Position numbers and translations under genes: made by a program. From an uncultured SAR86 cluster bacterium (lineage in GTDB: Bacteria; Pseudomonadota; Gammaproteobacteria; Magnimaribacterales; AG-339-G14), in contig CACOQX010000010.1 in NCBI GenBank assembly GCA_902629465.1, forward strand, positions 1 to 33,724: DNA of 33,724 nt, given 5' to 3'. The notes under the pieces were generated by a model, which did not search any database, was not told the DNA's origin, and saw only the letters and a list, made by a program, of their open reading frames with translations. Below are positions 5,359 through 28,637 of the stretch, one piece after another (the stretch's first letter is position 1; each line of letters opens with the position of its first letter).

Positions 5359-7844
5359 TTGTTGAGCAAGCTTTCTATCTTCCATCTAATAAGATTTTTA
5401 TGATTTTCTGTAGCTTCATCTCGAGAAGGCAAAAAAGTATATGCTTTTATTCTCTTCAGAGAAGCATAACTCGCAGAGGTTGAAGGAGAATCAAAATTTC
5501 CACTTCTAAAAATCATTATCAGCCTTTTAAGATAATAATTCTGTAGATTTTGATCTATACCGTTTAGTTCACGAGATTTACTTTCTTTAAAAATAGATAA
5601 AGTTAGATCTTTAAGCAGCTCATTTGGTAGATATTCATTTCCGTATAAAGAAGAATCAGTCAGTCTTTTTAGAACTCTAGAATTGGTAAAGTGTTTTAAT
5701 ACTTTTTTTTGTCCTTTTAAAATCATTTTGTGAATTTTGGGATCTTCAGTTTTACCGTAAAAATCAAAACTTCTTCTTTCCCGTTGCAACTTACTTGCAA
5801 TGTCAGGAGGAAGAAGAAATTTATCGCTATCGAAATAATATTCAGAAAGAATTTTTATTGATTCTTTTTGAATTTTATAAGGAACAACTTCATATGGATT
5901 TCCACCGTTTTCTAACATGTAGCCCCTATTTGTATAAACTCCACCAACTTGCCTTGAAATTATTTCAGCTGATGAATGAATTTGTCTTAAAAGAATTCTG
6001 TATCCCTGATAAATGCTTTCCCAGCTATCTGATTTTGATTTTAAAGTATCGTAAAGATTTGGTATTAAGTTTTGCGATAGTATAATTCTATCTTTGGCAT
6101 AACTGACAGGATCATTCGACATATCTCCAGTATTTATTCTTGGATCAATTCCTTTTCCAGGAGATCTCATATCATCAGCATCGTTCCCAAATAAATATTC
6201 TTTAGAGGAATATTTCTCAAGCATTTCATCTAAATCATTTTTTGAAAGTTCTGGAGTATAAGCGTACTTAATCGCCAAAATGTCATATTTACCGGGTTTT
6301 ATATCTGCATACTGTCCTTGTTTTACTCCCAGAGGAGCAATATTTAAAGCATGGTAATCCATTACAGAAGAACTTAAACCTTCTTTATAAGTTTTTTCAG
6401 GATTGTGTACATCAGAATTATTATGGAGAGTTGAAGCAGCGAAATTATGATTGAGACCTAACGTGTGACCAACTTCATGTAATATTAATTGGTATAAATC
6501 TTCTTTGTATAATTTACTTATCTCGGTTTCATTTAATTCTAGTGCTTCCATGGCTAATTTTCCAAATAGTCTATTTTCTTGTTTTATCAAAGAATTAAGA
6601 CAAAAATCGTTTCTATGATTTTGTTGATTATCTTGATTTTCAAATATTTCTGAGTATCTGACTCTATTAGTAAGGTAAATCCATTCAAGCATAATATCTG
6701 CTCCAAGAATTTCTCCTGTTCTAGGATTTGTAAAACTAGGGCCGTATCCTCCAAAAGGAGGATTAGGTGATGAAGTCCATCTTATAGTGTTGTATCTTAT
6801 ATCGCCCGCTGACCATTTTGCATCTTCAGGTTGTATTCTTACTTCAATTGCATTGAGGAAACCAGCTTCTTCAAAAGCAATATTCCATGCTAAAACTGCA
6901 TTTTTTATAATAGGTCTAAGTTCGTAAGGAGTAGAATTTTCAATCCAAAACAAAATAGGTTTAACTGGTATAGATTTTTCTTTATTTTTATCTTTTTTCT
7001 CTAGATGCCATTTATTAATTAGATCTTCATAAGGAGTAATATCTGTTGAAGATAAGTTGGTTTTTCTTTCAGAAAAGAAACCTATTCTTTGATCTTCTAC
7101 TCGAGTTTCAAAATTGTTTTCAGGATAATTTATAAAACTAAATCTAAGAGAAATTGAATTATTTCTTGAATCTTGATTTTCTATTGGTTTATTAGATGGA
7201 TTTGAGAAAACAAAATTAATTTCAAAGTCAGTGTTTTTAGGATAATTTAACACTTTATTGATACTAGATTTATTTCTGGATATAGAACCAATTCTAAAGG
7301 AATCTTTAGATTCTTCTTTGTTTTGAGCAACAGTTATTTTGGATAAGTTTTCACTTAATAATAAAGATGTAACATCTATTAAAAATTTATCTTTTGTTTC
7401 AGATTTTTTTTCAATTTTTAATGAATCTATCAAGGAATTAGAAATATTTGCATTTTTAGCTTTTGATAATGGATTTTTCTCATCAAATAAATAGGCAGTA
7501 TTGATTCGATCTATTCTGATCTGGTCAAAATATTTTATGAATTTAATGATGCCGTTATCTAAATAATTTCCTCTCCAAGTTCCAGCTTCTACTATTCCAT
7601 CCAAAATGTGAGCAAAATAAATAAATTCTTTCTCTAATTGATTTTTTTTTATTAAAAAATAAACTTTTCCATTTTCATCATTTCTATAAACATCAATGAG
7701 TCCGGGAAAGTGTGTCAAGTCTTCCAGAAAAGTCTCAAGTCCATCATCTTTTTCTTCTTTTTTATTATTATCTTCATCGGCCAAAATAGATATTGAAAGA
7801 AATCCAATAAGGGCTATCCTAAATAGTAAATTGTATAAAATCAT
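5355..7844 (-). CDS. Zinc-dependent metalloprotease (DUF5117/DUF4953-type metzincin)
   Basis: HEVGHTLGLNHNF zinc motif with downstream Met-turn SSVMDYHALN; long N-terminal region. Probable ATG at 7844 (MILYNLLFRIALIGFLSISILADE signal peptide); the track start 7856 is TTG. Confidence 0.85.
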   Translation of the reverse strand: MILYNLLFRIALIGFLSISILADEDNNKKEEKDDGLETFLEDLTHFPGLIDVYRNDENGKVYFLIKKNQLEKEFIYFAHILDGIVEAGTWRGNYLDNGIIKFIKYFDQIRIDRINTAYLFDEKNPLSKAKNANISNSLIDSLKIEKKSETKDKFLIDVTSLLLSENLSKITVAQNKEESKDSFRIGSISRNKSSINKVLNYPKNTDFEINFVFSNPSNKPIENQDSRNNSISLRFSFINYPENNFETRVEDQRIGFFSERKTNLSSTDITPYEDLINKWHLEKKDKNKEKSIPVKPILFWIENSTPYELRPIIKNAVLAWNIAFEEAGFLNAIEVRIQPEDAKWSAGDIRYNTIRWTSSPNPPFGGYGPSFTNPRTGEILGADIMLEWIYLTNRVRYSEIFENQDNQQNHRNDFCLNSLIKQENRLFGKLAMEALELNETEISKLYKEDLYQLILHEVGHTLGLNHNFAASTLHNNSDVHNPEKTYKEGLSSSVMDYHALNIAPLGVKQGQYADIKPGKYDILAIKYAYTPELSKNDLDEMLEKYSSKEYLFGNDADDMRSPGKGIDPRINTGDMSNDPVSYAKDRIILSQNLIPNLYDTLKSKSDSWESIYQGYRILLRQIHSSAEIISRQVGGVYTNRGYMLENGGNPYEVVPYKIQKESIKILSEYYFDSDKFLLPPDIASKLQRERRSFDFYGKTEDPKIHKMILKGQKKVLKHFTNSRVLKRLTDSSLYGNEYLPNELLKDLTLSIFKESKSRELNGIDQNLQNYYLKRLIMIFRSGNFDSPSTSASYASLKRIKAYTFLPSRDEATENHKNLIRWKIESLLNN

Positions 7845-7870
7845 GATTGGAAACAAATTATCTTAGGTTA

Positions 7871-8635
7871 ATGAAAAACAATCAATCAGAAAGAAAAAAA
7901 AGTTCTATGCCCTTGAGGATTACGAGAAAAAGTTTTTTGGGAGTACTAAGTTTAATTTTTCAAGAATTTATGGAATCTTTATTTACAAAATTTAAGTTAA
8001 AGAAACCAAAAGAAGAAGAAGTTCTATCAATTGTAAGGTTAAAAGCAGAGCCTAATAATCCAAATTCTGTGCTTAAAATAATTGATAATTATGCATATAA
8101 AAAAACTTTTCTTATGAATATCGGAGAAGAAAAAGGGCTTCTCTTAGAAAATGCAATTAATGAATCAGCAGCAAATAACATTCTTGAGTTAGGTGTTTAT
8201 TTGGGCTACTCAACAATTAGAATTCTTAAAAACTTAAATGATAATTCTAAACTTACTTCAATTGAATCAAATAATAGATTCGCCGAAATTGCATCTGAAA
8301 ATATAAATATAGCTGGACTATCAAATAAGCATAAATTGATTATAGGGAAATCAAACGAAGTCATTCCAAATCTAAGTGAAAAATATGATTTTATTTTCAT
8401 TGATCATTGGAAGGATTTATACCTAAAAGATTTAAAAACTTTAGAAGAAAATGATTTGATTGAAGATAAGGCTTGGATTTTTGCAGATAATGTAATTCTT
8501 TTTAATCTGGAAGATTATTTAGATTATGTAAGATTGTCTCCAAAATATACAAGTAAATTCATTCCTGCGAAAAGGGAATATTCAAAATCACACCCTGATG
8601 GAGTGGAAATCTCAATCTTTAATAATGAAATTTAA
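7871..8635 (+). CDS. Class I SAM-dependent O-methyltransferase, catechol-O-methyltransferase-like
   Basis: NILELGVYLGYSTIRI (SAM motif), FIDHWKDLYLKD, FADNVI. The track start 7847 is TTG and would overlap the divergent gene; ATG at 7871 is used here. Confidence 0.8.
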   Translation: MKNNQSERKKSSMPLRITRKSFLGVLSLIFQEFMESLFTKFKLKKPKEEEVLSIVRLKAEPNNPNSVLKIIDNYAYKKTFLMNIGEEKGLLLENAINESAANNILELGVYLGYSTIRILKNLNDNSKLTSIESNNRFAEIASENINIAGLSNKHKLIIGKSNEVIPNLSEKYDFIFIDHWKDLYLKDLKTLEENDLIEDKAWIFADNVILFNLEDYLDYVRLSPKYTSKFIPAKREYSKSHPDGVEISIFNNEI

Positions 8636-8849
8636 TACTCTTGATTTGCATGGAATCAAACATGCAGATGTAAAAATTGAAGTAGAAAATTATCTTTATT
8701 TGAATCAAGAGGATTGTCCGATATTAATTATCTGTGGAAACAGTCAAAAAATGATATCTTTAGTGGAGGAGGTTCTCGTCAAAATTAAATCAAGTTTTGA
8801 GATAGGTTCAGGTAATAATTATGGAACTATCATGGTGAGGTCAGTTTAA
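8625..8849 (+). CDS. Small standalone Smr-like domain protein
   Basis: MKFNTLDLHGIKHADVKIEVENYL...ILIICGNSQKM: LDLHG motif followed by a beta strand as in Smr domains. ATG at 8625 overlaps the end of the methyltransferase. Confidence 0.5.
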   Translation: MKFNTLDLHGIKHADVKIEVENYLYLNQEDCPILIICGNSQKMISLVEEVLVKIKSSFEIGSGNNYGTIMVRSV

Positions 8850-8851
8850 AA

Positions 8852-10189
8852 ATGGATAACTTTTCTTTAGTTTTAAAAAATTGTAATTTGGTAAATGAAG
8901 ACTCTATAGCTGCAGTAGATATTGGAATTAAGGGCGATAAAATAGAAAAGATTGCTTCCCAAATAACTTCAGAATCTTCTGAAATTATTGACCTTGAGGG
9001 AAATTACATTGCTCCTGGAATAATTGATGATCAAGTCCATTTTAGAGATCCAGGATTGACTGAAAAAGGAGATATACTTTCAGAGTCTTTGGCAGCCGTC
9101 TTTTCAGGCGTCACCTCTACCTTTGATATGCCTAATGTCAATCCTAATACAACTACTATTAATCTATTGAATGATAGGAATTCACTTGGAGCAAATAAAT
9201 CTTGGACTAATTATTCCTATTATTTTGGGGCAACAGAAACTAATTTAGAAGAAATAAAGAAATTAAATCCTAAAGAAACTTGTGGCTTAAAAGTTTTTAT
9301 GGGAACTTCTACTGGAACTTTATTAGTAGAAGACGATTTTGCTCTAGACCAAATCTTTCGATTTTGCCCAGTAACAATTGTGACTCATTGCGAAGATAAT
9401 GAAACTATAAAAGATAATTTAGAAAAAGTTAATTCAGAGCATCAAAAATTGAATGCAAGTTTTCATCCTATTATTCGCGACGATGTATGTTGTTACAAAT
9501 CATCATCGAAGGTCATTGAATTAGCAAAAAAACATTCTTCAGATCTACATGTTCTTCATTTGACTACTGAAAAAGAGATTGAACTTTTTGAAAATTTTGA
9601 TTTGAAGAATAAAAAAATTACTTGTGAAGTCTGCGTGCACCATCTGTGGTTTGATGAGAGAGATTATGAAAAGCAGGGAAATTTAATAGTTTGCAATCCA
9701 GCCATAAAAAAAGTATCCGATAGAGATGCGCTGAGAAAAGCACTTAAGGATGGTTTTATAGATTATGTTGCTACCGATCATGCTCCTCATTGTTTTGAAG
9801 ATAAGAAATTGCCTTATGGAGAAGCGCCAGCTGGAATTCCACTTATTGAGCATTCATTTCACATGATGATAGAACTTCATAAACAAGGATTTTATTCCCT
9901 TGGAGAAGTTATTTCATACATGAGTCACAAGGTAGCTGATAGGTTTTCTATTCAGGATAGAGGATATGTAAGGGAGGGTTATAAGGCAGACTTTATGATG
10001 TTTGATCTTGAGAAAAGAACCTTAGTAAAAAATAAAACAGAAAAAACTAAATGCGGATGGACACCCTTTGATGGATATACTTTCAATTCCTCTGTACTTG
10101 GGACAATCGTTAACGGAAAGCCTATTGTGGTTGATGGAAAACTAGTCGCAAAAAATTCTTCTGCAGAAAAAATATTATTTGATAGGTAA
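8852..10189 (+). CDS. Class I dihydroorotase / dihydroorotase-like amidohydrolase
   Basis: GIIDDQVHFRDPGLTEKGD, GLKVFMGTSTG (lysine), VTHCED, LHVLHLTTEKE, DYVATDHAPHCFEDK. Confidence 0.85.
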   Translation: MDNFSLVLKNCNLVNEDSIAAVDIGIKGDKIEKIASQITSESSEIIDLEGNYIAPGIIDDQVHFRDPGLTEKGDILSESLAAVFSGVTSTFDMPNVNPNTTTINLLNDRNSLGANKSWTNYSYYFGATETNLEEIKKLNPKETCGLKVFMGTSTGTLLVEDDFALDQIFRFCPVTIVTHCEDNETIKDNLEKVNSEHQKLNASFHPIIRDDVCCYKSSSKVIELAKKHSSDLHVLHLTTEKEIELFENFDLKNKKITCEVCVHHLWFDERDYEKQGNLIVCNPAIKKVSDRDALRKALKDGFIDYVATDHAPHCFEDKKLPYGEAPAGIPLIEHSFHMMIELHKQGFYSLGEVISYMSHKVADRFSIQDRGYVREGYKADFMMFDLEKRTLVKNKTEKTKCGWTPFDGYTFNSSVLGTIVNGKPIVVDGKLVAKNSSAEKILFDR

Positions 10190-11631
10190 TGAATTATTCA
10201 GAATACTTTTCCTATGATTCTCTTGGATTAGCCGACCTAGTAAGAACAAAGAAAATATCGCCTGAAGAGCTCTTAGATATAGCAATAGGATTAACTAAAA
10301 AATTGGATCCTAAATTAAATGCTATTCCAATTAAACATTTTGATTTAGCTAGAGATAATTTAAAAAATCAAAACAACAAAGGAATATTTTATGGCGTTCC
10401 GTTTTTGTTGAAGGATCTTAATAATTATTTAGAAGGAACTGTAACTTCAGGAGGTTCTAGAATCTTGAAAAATATTAAAGCAGATCATTCAAGCGAATTG
10501 GTTAAAAGAACTATAGATTCAGGATTAAATATATTTGGGAAAACTAACTCTCCTGAACTTGGATTGACTGTTACAACTGAACCAGTATTGTATGGTCCAA
10601 CTAGAAATCCCTGGAACTTAGACAGATCCTCTGGAGGGTCCAGTGGTGGAGCCTCATCTGCTGTTGCCGCAGGGATAGTTCCAATGGCACAAGCAAGTGA
10701 TGGAGGAGGTTCTATAAGAATTCCTGCTTCTTGTTGTGGACTATTTGGTTTAAAACCTACTAGAGCTAGGACACCTTTAGGTCCAATTTCTTTAGAAGGA
10801 TGGGGCGGGCAGTCAATTTTCCATTGTGTTTCTGTTTCTGTAAGAGATTCTGCTGCTCTTTTGGATGTTACCTCTGGCCATGAAAGGGGAGCTCCGTATA
10901 GATCTGCTCATCAAGAAAAAAGCTTTTTAGAACAAATTAACATCGAACCGGGAAAACTTAAAATTGGTTTTTTAGATGATTCAAGTATTTCTGTTGACGA
11001 AGATGTTAAAGAGGTAATGAATTCAACAATAGATTTATGTCAAAAATTAGGGCATTCAGTTGAGCGTACAAAAATAAATTTTTCTTCTGAAGAAATTTCC
11101 TTAGCTATCGTTACTATTATCTCTTCAAACGTAGCTTATACAGTTAAATCGCAATCTGAACAGACTGGAAGAAATATTTCCAATGAATTTTTTGAAAACG
11201 TTACTCTTCAAATGGCAGAAAATGGTAATAATTTTTCAGCCAGTGACTATGTCAATGCAATAAAAATTAACCATAGATTAGGACAAGAATTAGAAAAAAT
11301 GTTTGATAAATATGATGTTCTTTTATCACCAGTTTTAGCATCACCTCCGATAAAAATTGGAACTATAGATATGAACACTAATGATATGAAAACTTACATT
11401 GAAAGACTAAGTAATTACTCTCCCTTTACAGGAATATTTAATCAGTCTGGACAACCTTCTATGTCTGTTCCTCTATTTAGAACGAAAGATAATCTTCCAG
11501 TTGGGTCTATGTTTTCTGCCTCATTTGGAAATGAAAATTTATTATTTTCTCTAGCAGGTCAATTAGAGCAAGCACAACCTTGGAGAGAATCTCTTAATAA
11601 TATGAGAACGGTTTTGCTGGAGACTATTTAG
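10189..11631 (+). CDS. Amidase signature family protein (GatA-like amidase)
   Basis: GVPFLLKD (Lys) and RSSGGSSGGASSAVAAGIVPMAQASDGGGSIRIPASCCGLFGLKPTR. TAATG overlap with the dihydroorotase. Confidence 0.9.
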   Translation: MNYSEYFSYDSLGLADLVRTKKISPEELLDIAIGLTKKLDPKLNAIPIKHFDLARDNLKNQNNKGIFYGVPFLLKDLNNYLEGTVTSGGSRILKNIKADHSSELVKRTIDSGLNIFGKTNSPELGLTVTTEPVLYGPTRNPWNLDRSSGGSSGGASSAVAAGIVPMAQASDGGGSIRIPASCCGLFGLKPTRARTPLGPISLEGWGGQSIFHCVSVSVRDSAALLDVTSGHERGAPYRSAHQEKSFLEQINIEPGKLKIGFLDDSSISVDEDVKEVMNSTIDLCQKLGHSVERTKINFSSEEISLAIVTIISSNVAYTVKSQSEQTGRNISNEFFENVTLQMAENGNNFSASDYVNAIKINHRLGQELEKMFDKYDVLLSPVLASPPIKIGTIDMNTNDMKTYIERLSNYSPFTGIFNQSGQPSMSVPLFRTKDNLPVGSMFSASFGNENLLFSLAGQLEQAQPWRESLNNMRTVLLETI

Positions 11632-14817: not shown

Positions 14818-16168
14818 AAAAATAGGCATAACAGAGGTTGTTCTCAGAGATGGTAATCAATCTCTACTCTCAACCCGTTTAAAGATAGAAGACATAATTC
14901 CAATTGCGTCTAAATTAGATGATATAGGTTATTCCTCAATTGAAAGCTGGGGCGGTGCTATTTTTGATTCCTGTGTACGTTATTTAGATGAAGATCCTTG
15001 GGAAAGACTGAGAGAATTTAAAAGGGCTATGCCAAAAACGAAACAACAAATGCTTTTAAGAGGCCAAAATTTAGTTGGCTACAAACACTATAGTGATGAA
15101 ATAGTATCTAAATTTATAGATATGTCTGTTTTCAATGGAATTGATATTTTTAGAATTTTTGACGCACTAAATGATTTAAGAAATATAAAACATAGTGTGG
15201 AAATAGTTAAAAAAAATGGTAAACATGCCCAAGGAACAATTGCTTATACAATAAGTCCTGTTCATACGCTTGAAACTTGGATTGATTTAGCTAAAGAAAT
15301 AGAAGATCTTGATTGTAACTCACTATGTATCAAAGATATGTCGGGGATTTTAAGCCCTGAGTTCGCTTATGATTTAATTTCTAGATTGAAAAAAGAAATA
15401 TCAATCCCAATTCATCTTCACACTCATGCAACGACTGGCATGTCTAACTTAACTAATATGAGAGCAGTTGAAGCAGGGGTGGATAATATTGATACCTCTA
15501 TTTCATCAATGAGTATGGGTTATGGACACTCAGCCACAGAAACTATGGTTTATTTACTGAAAGAAAAAAATATCGATGTAGATATTAACTTAAATGATTT
15601 GTTAAAAATCTCGGAATATTTCAAAACTATTAGAGACAAATATAAAGAATTTGAAGGAAGAATGAAGGGAGTAGATTTACAAATGCTTATTAATCAAGTG
15701 CCTGGAGGAATGCTATCTAATTTAGAAACTCAATTAAAAAATCTTGGAAAGGAAGAGCTTTTAGAGGATGTAGTTTCAGAGATATATGATGTAAGAAAAG
15801 ATGTTGGTTTTGTTCCACTTGTAACTCCTGCATCACAAATTATTGGAGCTCAGGCTCTTTCTAATATTTTAAATAAAAGATATGAAACATTATCAATAGA
15901 AATAATTGACATGGTATTGGGTTACTACGGAAAACTTCCAGGAGAAATAAATACCAATCTTTTCAAAAAAGCTTCAGAACAAAAAAATAATATTACAGTC
16001 CGTCCTGCAGATTTGCTTAAAGATAAATTTGAGGATTTTAGAGAAAATTTAAAACAATATTGTAATAAATTACAAATTAAAGATTTGAGTAATATTGAAG
16101 AAAATATTCTTACTTTTATTCTCATACCTTATGGTAGTGAAAAAATTTTCAAAAAGATGTCTTCCTAG
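14810..16168 (+). CDS. Oxaloacetate decarboxylase alpha / pyruvate carboxylase subunit B-type carboxyltransferase, lacking a biotinyl domain
   Basis: ITEVVLRDGNQSLLSTRLKIEDIIPIASKLDDIGYSSIESWGGAIFDSCVRYLDEDPWERLR, LCIKDMSG, HLHTHATTGMSN. 452 aa; no C-terminal MKM-type biotin motif before the stop. GTG start. Confidence 0.88.
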   Translation: MNKKIGITEVVLRDGNQSLLSTRLKIEDIIPIASKLDDIGYSSIESWGGAIFDSCVRYLDEDPWERLREFKRAMPKTKQQMLLRGQNLVGYKHYSDEIVSKFIDMSVFNGIDIFRIFDALNDLRNIKHSVEIVKKNGKHAQGTIAYTISPVHTLETWIDLAKEIEDLDCNSLCIKDMSGILSPEFAYDLISRLKKEISIPIHLHTHATTGMSNLTNMRAVEAGVDNIDTSISSMSMGYGHSATETMVYLLKEKNIDVDINLNDLLKISEYFKTIRDKYKEFEGRMKGVDLQMLINQVPGGMLSNLETQLKNLGKEELLEDVVSEIYDVRKDVGFVPLVTPASQIIGAQALSNILNKRYETLSIEIIDMVLGYYGKLPGEINTNLFKKASEQKNNITVRPADLLKDKFEDFRENLKQYCNKLQIKDLSNIEENILTFILIPYGSEKIFKKMSS

Positions 16169-16796
16169 AAATTGAGAATACAAAACCATCATCATCTTGG
16201 TCGCTGGAATCATTAGAATTAAAGTAAAAATAAAAAAGACTCAGATTAAAATTATTTTGTAATGTTTCTATTCCAATAGAATAATTTGAACCATTAGAAG
16301 TATTTATATTTTTATATGAATCAAAATCTCCATACGATAACGTCAAAGAATTATTCAAAAAATCAAAGCCATAAGAAAATTCATAATAGTCTGGAAAATT
16401 ATCAAGACCTGCAAAATAAGATATTTCAAAATCATAAAAAGAAAAATTAAATTCTAATTCATCATAATTATCAATTTTGGAATTAGGATAATTTGTTCCA
16501 ACGTAGTTAAAAGAAATATTTAGATTTTTATCTATCTCTTTTTGATAACCAAAGAAATAACCAATCTCTCTGTTTGGGTAATCAGTATTTTCTGAGCAGC
16601 AATTTTCAAGCCAAGCTCCTGAAAAAAATCCATTTTCTAGTGAAAAATTAATTTCAACTCCAACTGTAGCGTTTCCATTATTTTGAGTGATGCCTCTCCA
16701 AATAGAATCACTATTTAAAGAAAATTCAATATCACTATTTGTAAATATAGAAAGTGGTAAAAAAAATAAGAAGACTTTTATTAAAATATTATTCAT
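16149..16796 (-). CDS. TorF-like putative porin / TIGR02001-type outer-membrane protein (divergent third paralog)
   Basis: Signal peptide then SDSIWRGITQNNGNATVGVEINFSLENGFFSGAW; similar to the two upstream genes. Confidence 0.7.
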   Translation of the reverse strand: MNNILIKVFLFFLPLSIFTNSDIEFSLNSDSIWRGITQNNGNATVGVEINFSLENGFFSGAWLENCCSENTDYPNREIGYFFGYQKEIDKNLNISFNYVGTNYPNSKIDNYDELEFNFSFYDFEISYFAGLDNFPDYYEFSYGFDFLNNSLTLSYGDFDSYKNINTSNGSNYSIGIETLQNNFNLSLFYFYFNSNDSSDQDDDGFVFSISRKTSF

Positions 16797-16826
16797 AAAA
16801 AAAAGCCTCTCAAAAGAGAGGCTTTT
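16797..16826 (-). terminator. Rho-independent terminator downstream of the 16849-17475 gene
   Basis: Perfect 11-bp inverted repeat AAAAGCCTCTC (16801-16811) / GAGAGGCTTTT (16816-16826), 4-nt loop; on the minus strand it ends in an 8-T tract. Confidence 0.9.
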
Positions 16827-16848
16827 ATTTTAACTTTTTTTCAAGCTC

Positions 16849-17475
16849 TTAGAATGATCTGCTTAAAGATACATAAGCACCATCGTCGTCAACACCGGAA
16901 GAATTGTTTTTGTGAGCTTCAAAGTCGTAGTAGTAAAAACCAAGACTAAAGTCACCAATACCCCAATCATAACCAACTAAGGTGTTATCGCCAGTATCTT
17001 CATATTCTCCGTAAGAGATATTAAAAGAACCTGGACCCGCATCAACTGAGTAGCCGATCTCACTATATGAAGGACCATCATTTTGACCATCAGAGTACAA
17101 AATACTAAGGCCATAGATGTCGAAACCTACATAAGCTTCTTCAAAATCTGCAGCATCATTTCCGGGATAAATTACTGAAATATAACCTATGTTATAGGTC
17201 ATGTTTTCAGCCATTTCTCCTGAGAAACCTAGGTAGATGTCTAATTCCATAGATGCTGTTCCAACATTTGCATTAGACGCCCAAGTTCCAATATAGAAGC
17301 CCAAATCTGTGGATAGATCAAATCCACCATTCACAGAAGGGTCACCATTTGTCTGAGTAATTCCACGCCATATGTAGTCACTACTTAAGCCTACATTACT
17401 TGAAATTTCTACAGCAGATGCATAAGAACTTAAAATTAAAAACATGCTTGTTAAAGCAATTTTTATACTTTTCAT
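16849..17475 (-). CDS. TorF-like putative porin / TIGR02001-type outer-membrane protein
   Basis: SSNVGLSSDYIWRGITQTNGDPSVNGGFDLSTDLGFYIGTWASN...GYDWGIGDFSLGFYYYDF...GAYVSLSRSF. SD GGAGATGAT before ATG. Confidence 0.88.
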   Translation of the reverse strand: MKSIKIALTSMFLILSSYASAVEISSNVGLSSDYIWRGITQTNGDPSVNGGFDLSTDLGFYIGTWASNANVGTASMELDIYLGFSGEMAENMTYNIGYISVIYPGNDAADFEEAYVGFDIYGLSILYSDGQNDGPSYSEIGYSVDAGPGSFNISYGEYEDTGDNTLVGYDWGIGDFSLGFYYYDFEAHKNNSSGVDDDGAYVSLSRSF

Positions 17476-17575
17476 ATCATCTCCATTATAAATTTATAAA
17501 AGATAAACGCATTAAACATTAAAAGATTCCTTCTATAAAGAGTTTTTTTTAAAAGAATCTACATAAATAGGTATA

Positions 17576-17622
17576 AAAAACAAACAAACCCCTCAATCAA
17601 ACGCAGATTTAAAGGGGTTTGT
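17576..17622 (-). terminator. Probable rho-independent terminator for the 17709-18350 gene
   Basis: Inverted repeat ACAAACCCCT (17584-17593) / AGGGGTTTGT (17613-17622); minus-strand 3' side continues TTTGTTTTTTAT. Confidence 0.7.
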
Positions 17623-17678
17623 AAACCATATAATCACTAGAGAAAGGGGAATATAGTTCTTATATAGTTTCAATGGTA

Positions 17679-17701
17679 CCTCCCAGTAAGCAACTGGGAG
17701 G
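17679..17701. repeat. Perfect 8-bp hairpin just downstream of the 17709-18350 stop codon
   Basis: CCTCCCAG (17679-17686) - TAAGCAA - CTGGGAGG (17694-17701). No adjacent T-tract. Confidence 0.7.
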
Positions 17702-17708
17702 AATTTAA

Positions 17709-18350
17709 TTAGTAACTAATACTGAAATATGCTCCATCATCATCGGCCATACCACTCGCTGCTTCAGCTTGGAAATCATAAAAGTAAAAACCAAGAGTAA
17801 AATCTCCTATACCCCAGTCATAGCCGATTAATACATTTTCTCCTTTCTCATCATACTCGCCGTATGAAATTGAAAATGATCCTGGTCCTGCATCAATTCC
17901 ATAACCAAGTTCTGTATAGTCTGGAGAATTATCAATTCCCGCAGAAAAAGATATATAAGCTCCATAAAAATCAAAAGTTAAATATAATTCTTCAAAATCC
18001 CAAGAATCATAATCTGGGTAAGTGTAGGCTATATATCCTAAATCATATCCAGCGTCGTCGTTAAACGAACCTGAATATCCTAAATAGCCATCTAGTTCAA
18101 TTGAACCTGATCCAGCAACTGTATCGTCATCATCAGCTTCGACATTAGCTGCCCATACTCCGAGATAGAAACCGCTATCATCTTCTAAGTCAAAACCACC
18201 GCTTATGGATGGATTACCGTCATTTTGAGTCATCCCTCTCCAGATGTAATCAGTAGTAAGTCCAACATTCCCAGACAAAGAAACTTCGGCAAAAACTAAG
18301 CTATTTATGGAAAGAATAGAGCCAAAAATAATTTTTTTTAAAATATTCAT
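17709..18350 (-). CDS. TorF-like putative porin / TIGR02001-type outer-membrane protein
   Basis: SGNVGLTTDYIWRGMTQNDGNPSISGGFDLEDDSGFYLGVWAAN...GPGSFSISYGEYDEKGENVLIGYDWGIGDFTLGFYFYDF. SD AAGGAG before ATG. Confidence 0.88.
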   Translation of the reverse strand: MNILKKIIFGSILSINSLVFAEVSLSGNVGLTTDYIWRGMTQNDGNPSISGGFDLEDDSGFYLGVWAANVEADDDDTVAGSGSIELDGYLGYSGSFNDDAGYDLGYIAYTYPDYDSWDFEELYLTFDFYGAYISFSAGIDNSPDYTELGYGIDAGPGSFSISYGEYDEKGENVLIGYDWGIGDFTLGFYFYDFQAEAASGMADDDGAYFSISY

Positions 18351-27596: not shown

Positions 27597-27968
27597 ATGG
27601 AAGATTTAATACTTCTTCTTGGTATTGAAAATGCTTCGTTAAGAGGGTTCACGTTTGGCTTTGTTCATGTTTTGTTAGTAGTTGTCGGTTATTATTCAGG
27701 TTGGAGTATTAATCGTTTTCTAAAAATTGTCTCAAACGGATATATTGCGGGAATTATTGGAGCAGCGTTGGCACATGTTATAGCTGATTTAGTTGCAGCT
27801 CTAATTGATCCAACTATAAGACCAATGACTTTTGGTATTGTTTTAGGAGGTATCATTCCCTTACTCTTTATCCCTTTCCTGGATAAGTATTTAGTAAAAA
27901 GCAAAAATCACATCATGGTTGGAGATCATGAGGACATTAGAAAAGATTTAGAGGACAGACATTCTTAA
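27597..27968 (+). CDS. Small multi-TM membrane protein of unknown function
   Basis: MEDLILLLGIENASLRGFTFGFVHVLLVVVGYYSGW...; about three hydrophobic segments and a charged C-terminus; ATG shortly after sohB. Confidence 0.7.
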   Translation: MEDLILLLGIENASLRGFTFGFVHVLLVVVGYYSGWSINRFLKIVSNGYIAGIIGAALAHVIADLVAALIDPTIRPMTFGIVLGGIIPLLFIPFLDKYLVKSKNHIMVGDHEDIRKDLEDRHS

Positions 27969-27985: not shown

Positions 27986-28213
27986 TTATTTTTTTAAAAT
28001 GGCAAATATAATTATCAAAGACACAAGGGCTAAGAGCCCATTCTCTCCAAATAAATTCATTACTTCTGAAAAGTTATTCAAAACATTTCCAAAAACTGGA
28101 GTTTCAGGCCCAAAAATTAGTCCAATCAAGAGAGATATTGCAATGAAAAGCCCTAAAACCTCAGTAGACTTATATAAGAATTTTCTTATTTTTTTAAATT
28201 TAAATATATCCAT
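27986..28213 (-). CDS. Small two-helix membrane protein A (75 aa), similar to neighbour B
   Basis: ...LGLFIAISLLIGLIFGPETPVFGNVLNNFSEVMNLFGENGLLALVSLIIIFAILKK; aligns by eye with the 28259-28480 product. Confidence 0.65.
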   Translation of the reverse strand: MDIFKFKKIRKFLYKSTEVLGLFIAISLLIGLIFGPETPVFGNVLNNFSEVMNLFGENGLLALVSLIIIFAILKK

Positions 28214-28223
28214 TTTTTTTAAG

Positions 28224-28250
28224 TTGAGCCGAAGTGAAACTCCGGCTCAA
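28224..28250. repeat. Intercistronic hairpin between small membrane proteins B and A
   Basis: Perfect 8-bp inverted repeat TTGAGCCG (28224-28231) / CGGCTCAA (28243-28250), 11-nt loop, lying between the stop of B and the start of A. Confidence 0.75.
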
Positions 28251-28258
28251 AGCTAAAA

Positions 28259-28480
28259 TTACTTAAGTAATTTATAAAGCAGTGCTGCAGCTAAAAGTCC
28301 TACAATCCCCGCGTCACCCAACTGTTGGATTACTCCTAAAAGATTGCCAAGAACTCCGCCGAAGAACCAAGCATTGTTATCAAAAACAATACCAGCAACA
28401 ACACCCAGACCGATAACACCAACTAAGATTCCGGTTAATCCAGAAACTAAGTCTCTAATCATATCGAACGCTTTATCCAT
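28259..28480 (-). CDS. Small two-helix membrane protein B (73 aa)
   Basis: MDKAFDMIRDLVSGLTGILVGVIGLGVVAGIVFDNNAWFFGGVLGNLLGVIQQLGDAGIVGLLAAALLYKLLK. Strong SD (GGGGAGG) 8 nt upstream of ATG at 28480; the track start at 28495 would place the SD inside the ORF. Confidence 0.75.
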   Translation of the reverse strand: MDKAFDMIRDLVSGLTGILVGVIGLGVVAGIVFDNNAWFFGGVLGNLLGVIQQLGDAGIVGLLAAALLYKLLK

Positions 28481-28637
28481 AAGGTACCTCCCCATATATG
28501 TGTGATTTAGCTAACTTATAAAAACACAGGGTAATTAGTCCTTCAATTTTTAAAATTTTTTAGCTACTATCTAAGACAATTTCTGTCAAACACATATTTG
28601 ATAGTGTTATTAAAATAAAAAATAAAACAAGTAAAAA

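Follow-up and report, generated by a model that had tools for sequence, protein, structure and literature searches.

Class II phage holins (the S21 type of phage 21) have two membrane helices with N-in and C-in termini (PMC9636201). Two adjoining genes of a SAR86 bacterium, called B and A here, encode proteins that resemble them in being small, with two helices, a predicted N-in/C-in topology and a cationic C-terminus, and some of their phage relatives adjoin lysozyme or spanin genes. Unlike class II holins, the SAR86 genes are chromosomal, conserved across the order and without a neighbouring endolysin; they show no significant match to PHROG or Pfam holin models, and a separate paralogue stands in place of a dual-start antiholin. 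Chromosomal holin-like membrane proteins are also found in cells as CidA and LrgA (PMC9636201), a setting that A and B share. Pfam and NCBIfam scans, however, gave no match between these proteins and A or B. CidA and LrgA are larger multi-helix proteins encoded in other operons. A likeness of layout is offered by the puf operon of purple bacteria, in which small membrane polypeptides (light-harvesting proteins) are made in excess and an intercistronic hairpin sets the ratio; the comparison concerns excess and hairpin, and no protein kinship is claimed. Finally, mycobacteriophages Girr and NormanBulbieJr are reported to have two neighbouring holin-like genes per cassette, the first encoding 88 aa with two helices and an N-in/C-in topology (PMC13056207). 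The likeness to A and B is that two holin-like genes stand together; the difference is that these are phage lysis cassettes with lysins.

The window, that is, the whole stretch of DNA analysed here, comprises 33,724 nucleotides of a contig (CACOQX010000010.1) from an uncultured SAR86 cluster bacterium with a 944 kb genome. Judged by profile similarity, A and B belong, as its cellular representatives, to a hitherto undescribed family common to marine Gammaproteobacteria and marine tailed phages. What is new is a pair outside all family libraries searched, tied by its sequence to an equally unnamed marine phage family; its function we infer. Table 1 lists the genes and signals of the pair.

Table 1. 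Genes and signals of the pair, in window coordinates.
Feature	Position	Strand	Description	Basis
Gene B	28259..28480	-	73-aa two-helix membrane protein, probably major partner	ORF
Gene A	27986..28213	-	75-aa B paralogue, cationic N-terminus, probably minor partner	ORF and homology
Shine-Dalgarno GGGGAGG of B	28487..28493	-		sequence; -11.8 kcal/mol
B-A gap	28214..28258	-	45 nt, without recognisable Shine-Dalgarno for A	
B-A intercistronic hairpin	28224..28250	-	TTGAGCCGGAGT-TTC-ACTTCGGCTCAA	
Candidate -35 upstream of B	28584..28589	-	TTGACA; -10 uncertain	

Paralogy and distribution of A and B

Both open reading frames are present on the minus strand where the original prediction had placed them. 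B is read from a start at 28480, and a longer frame from 28495 is unlikely because the Shine-Dalgarno sequence lies six bases upstream of the former. AlphaFold2 models A as a two-helix hairpin (helices 3-34 and 41-74, pLDDT 89) and gives a weaker model for B (pLDDT 73; helical stretches 2-32, 37-56 and 59-72). Helix 1 of B is glycine-rich, and no conserved charged residue was found inside the helices of A and B. The pair is adjoined by a 123-aa multi-helix membrane ORF without family (27597-27968), of which the copy at locus L071 is 68% identical. Elsewhere in the window, positions 16149-18350 of the minus strand encode three related secreted proteins of 208-215 aa in tandem, probably outer-membrane proteins.

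The mutual similarity of A and B, at first seen by eye, is beyond chance. BLASTP aligned them over 70 gap-free residues with 27% identity and 51% positives (E 6e-9, single comparison), and the A family profile matched the B family profile at 99.1% (E 1.2e-18, score 92.5). In the controls for the profile matches among A, B and phage proteins, reversed profiles scored 14-20, none of 60 column-permuted profiles scored above 17.1, and the real profiles scored 74-104; because the reversed and permuted profiles fail, the matches are not explained by hydrophobicity alone, and the homology is real. In trees built from fewer than 80 columns and left unrooted, A and B each form a separate single group across SAR86, and the duplication is therefore older than the radiation of the order. 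A local duplication with divergence, as originally proposed, thus stands as regards the divergence and the neighbouring positions, with the event itself being old.

A match was found in 47 of the 61 SAR86 relatives searched (counting G027, whose weak match is probably unrelated), and 26 of the 29 near-complete genomes have one; wherever both genes could be read, B precedes A on the same strand. Tandem copies recur order-wide, and the ORFs are not absent from relatives. Two families of the order carry the pair between rpsO-pnp and ychF-pth-rplY and a third carries it between an oxidase-like gene and ychF (all gene labels read from sequence, without a family scan), while in the window's family it has been relocated to other places. 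The pair is cleanly missing from G016 (97% complete, one contig), where the flanks join directly at the site that holds the pair in its congener G034. Loss in G016 is the simpler reading, because in the more distant G028 of the same genus the pair occupies this very position. A mobile element was also considered and set aside: position varies between families and the one empty site is clean, element ends having been sought in the empty-site alignment only. Beyond SAR86, members of the family were seen in Thioglobus-type genomes and in a small number of other Gammaproteobacteria, in several cases as tandem copies; when 399 sampled genomes of the phylum were scanned with the B profile, it matched the window's own genome alone. 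A distant A/B-like hairpin in genome G285 (L079 1150-1701) is fused to a lysine/threonine-rich C-terminal tail of about 110 residues with KT repeats.

Sequence-family scans and Foldseek yielded no characterised small-protein family, in keeping with the first inspection, which had recognised none. A and B matched no Pfam, NCBIfam or PHROG family, MscL profiles in Pfam and NCBIfam included, and the PHROG and Pfam holin models gave no significant match to the family (one phage member reached E 0.022 against a PHROG holin). Profile searches of the PDB returned nothing at E 1, Foldseek nothing significant in PDB or BFVD, and Rfam no match. Candidates such as YrvL, SecG, BrnQ and HpsJ-like proteins were discarded, being far below cut-offs and different from member to member, as was a weak MscL hit, far below cut-off, for a neighbouring ORF.

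Constraint and expression signals

B is under strong purifying selection. Within the genus its identity is 99-100% (99.5%), and its dN of 0.006 is 7-15 times lower than that of A and three neighbours (0.044-0.092). Synonymous divergence is also low (pS 0.30 vs 0.49-0.65 for the same four genes), which may reflect selection on the mRNA. The Shine-Dalgarno sequence of B is stronger than in any of 309 background genes of the same genome (starts taken as the first ATG), and the site of A in the window lies near the median strength of that background. In three families the A gene mostly lacks a Shine-Dalgarno sequence; in family f2 it has one. Upstream of B, TTTGACAG is invariant in 14 aligned members of the genus.

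The gap between the two genes holds a hairpin in 51 of 51 SAR86 pairs (MFE -16.7 to -24.4 kcal/mol, median z -5.0). Among 50 further codirectional gaps sampled from the genus, only two reach this strength, both terminator-like. The sequence of the B-A hairpin varies between families. Within the genus, 97.6% of cells are paired, vs 22-49% when the structure is slid; covariation there is weak by shuffle control (62/500), and support for the hairpin comes instead from differing sequences that form the same structure between families. A U-run of at least four follows in only 18 of the 51 pairs, so that a stabilising or coupling element is as likely as a terminator. Because this conserved hairpin fills the B-A gap, B is probably made in excess of A, which agrees with the Shine-Dalgarno sequence, the hairpin and the selection on B. 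The strong translation first suggested for B is thus backed by the Shine-Dalgarno comparison, by constraint and by the hairpin. Codon usage gave no such backing and was no longer used to gauge expression: B does not resemble the ribosomal genes, which are themselves hardly biased in this genome.

Relatives in marine phage contigs

Scans of IMG/VR found relatives in at least 158 stretches with the B profile and in at least 274 with one phage protein as query. The contigs are from uncultivated marine phages, many of them T4-like, and the proteins are mostly 73-79 aa long with the same landmarks as A and B. Against the phage profile, B matches over all 73 residues (E 7.3e-21, 32% identity) and A at E 1.9e-14. 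In the tree, A, B and the phage proteins form separate groups, and the Thioglobus-type cellular copies group with two phage proteins (support 99/97; one pair is 63% identical). A second phage group, kin to those copies, is flanked in some of its contigs by small membrane-protein genes on one side and a terminase gene on the other. Each of eight phage contigs searched over its full length holds one copy. A search of viral contigs with one pattern found no A-type protein, and profile searches of the cultured pelagimyophage HTVC008M and methylophage Melnitz did not find the family; a search of phage isolates gave no match, although low-complexity filtering may hide hydrophobic proteins.

Gene context was counted over 112 dereplicated loci, among the matches listed, with gene names resting on PHROG and Pfam scans of examples. 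The major capsid gene gp23 (PHROG major head protein, E 4e-99) lies upstream in 45 of the 112, at a median distance of 184 nt, and T4-like gp21, gp22 and gp23 are present in contigs with the phage homologues. A GH24 lysozyme gene is directly upstream (about 120 nt) in six loci and an Rz-like i-spanin gene directly downstream in six, with an o-spanin further downstream in two; altogether a lysozyme or spanin gene directly adjoins in 12/112. Cell-wall hydrolase or transglycosylase-like genes lie near the homologue in three loci. Within 4.5 kb, a recognised endolysin or spanin occurs in 16 of the 112 loci and in none of the 45 gp23 loci.

Two other groups of genes recur in these phages. A single membrane protein of 55-58 aa with a WVKDR.AERTS-like motif and no PHROG match repeatedly adjoins the homologue (L250 4785-4955, L251 3635-3808, L259 and L263). 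The curli gene csgF lies within 4.5 kb in 18/112 loci, as in other curli-carrying phages. Curli modules of marine myophages (L317, L326, L337, L340, and L343, which is HTVC008M 7562-10666) comprise csgF, csgG and genes for a curlin-like-repeat protein and a FecR-like protein, with two small membrane/coiled-coil genes ahead of them; isolate records carry a curlin-associated annotation, although papers call csgA/B missing.

Possible roles of the pair

Our preferred reading, with a probability of roughly 0.4, is that A and B form a cellular holin-like oligomer in which B would be the main subunit and A a scarce regulatory paralogue, the phage members probably being class II-type holins. Size (70-79 aa), two helices and a topology that is probably N-in/C-in in A, B and the phage proteins fit class II holins. 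The charge pattern agrees with this topology: the C-termini are cationic, and the loop averages 0 K/R in B, 0.36 in A and 0.53 in the phage proteins. B, made in large excess, would use its glycine-rich helix 1 to assemble into oligomers of the inner membrane that could alter its permeability or potential; the less abundant A, with its cationic N-terminus, would join the assembly and restrain or cap it as an antiholin or minor subunit. In the cell the assembly might act in a tamed, non-lethal form, or it might be kept for lysis under control or as a defence against phages, mixing with the holins of an incoming phage. In the SAR86 loci examined, the pair had no recognised endolysin or spanin gene as a neighbour, and the cell's use must therefore be tamed or conditional. 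That the phage proteins act as holins we likewise infer, since a lysis gene is near in only 16/112 loci and in 0/45 of those with gp23. The original prediction of a membrane-active pair or oligomeric assembly had the right direction, in that the phage homologues point to a holin-like assembly, its function being put forward conditionally. Conservation across the order, the hairpin between the genes and the viral relatives were beyond the reach of that prediction. Several observations count against a holin: near-invariance together with a very strong Shine-Dalgarno sequence is not what a lethal gene would show, the PHROG and Pfam holin models give no significant match, and the pair is missing from G016, the family from HTVC008M and Melnitz, and A-type proteins from the viral contigs searched. 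A wider version is doubtful: marine T4-like and related phages would have in this family a holin that has gone unrecognised, and SAR86 would have kept a domesticated holin/antiholin-like pair for as long as the order has existed, for a membrane function or for interference with phage lysis by co-assembly with phage holins.

Two other membrane functions seem unlikely. A small constitutive channel or valve (serving, for instance, osmotic release through a glycine-packed pore helix), with phage copies borrowed from cells, is kept under consideration because MscL was not found in any of the 61 SAR86 genomes, by a search that was positive in 10 of 14 controls; the glycine-rich helix 1, near-invariance of B and strong Shine-Dalgarno sequence would accord with it, but A and B have no sequence match to MscL models and G016 lives without the pair. 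A pore-less scaffold is improbable to a similar degree: B oligomers would organise or bend the inner membrane, with A anchoring or ending them, as the apparent excess of B, the paralogous major/minor design, the lack of conserved charge inside the helices and the lysine-rich tail of the one distant homologue (L079) might suggest, yet no known scaffold is alike by sequence or fold. Neither explains the lysis neighbours (lysozyme and spanin) in phages.

Phage exclusion takes those phage copies as its starting point: they would block superinfection like small T4-type immunity proteins, and the cell would have adopted the pair as a defence. Many phage contigs do carry the family, and its neighbours there are more often genes for capsid or replication than for lysis; its presence is polymorphic among close SAR86 relatives. 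Order-wide upkeep with little diversity is, however, unlike most defence genes, and none was recognised among the listed flanking genes. This reading is quite improbable. A toxin-antitoxin or bacteriocin-like pair is very improbable indeed, for although two small adjoining membrane proteins with an intergenic hairpin recall one, B is nearly fully conserved within the genus, Rfam gave no match, none of the neighbouring genes was recognised as serving export or immunity, and homologues are spread over phages.

SAR86 is a dominant heterotroph group of the surface ocean, and a small membrane pair that is near-invariant, probably made in quantity and assigned to no family leaves a gap in the understanding of this group. 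For marine phages without a named holin, the phage family offers holin candidates; for the OM43 phage Melnitz, its authors propose the curli pore as a pinholin analogue (PMC9004378). A and B present a testable case of long-term cellular upkeep of a relative of a phage lysis protein, and their similarity to the phage family suggests that these bacteria may be using, in tamed form, a relative of a viral protein that forms holes.
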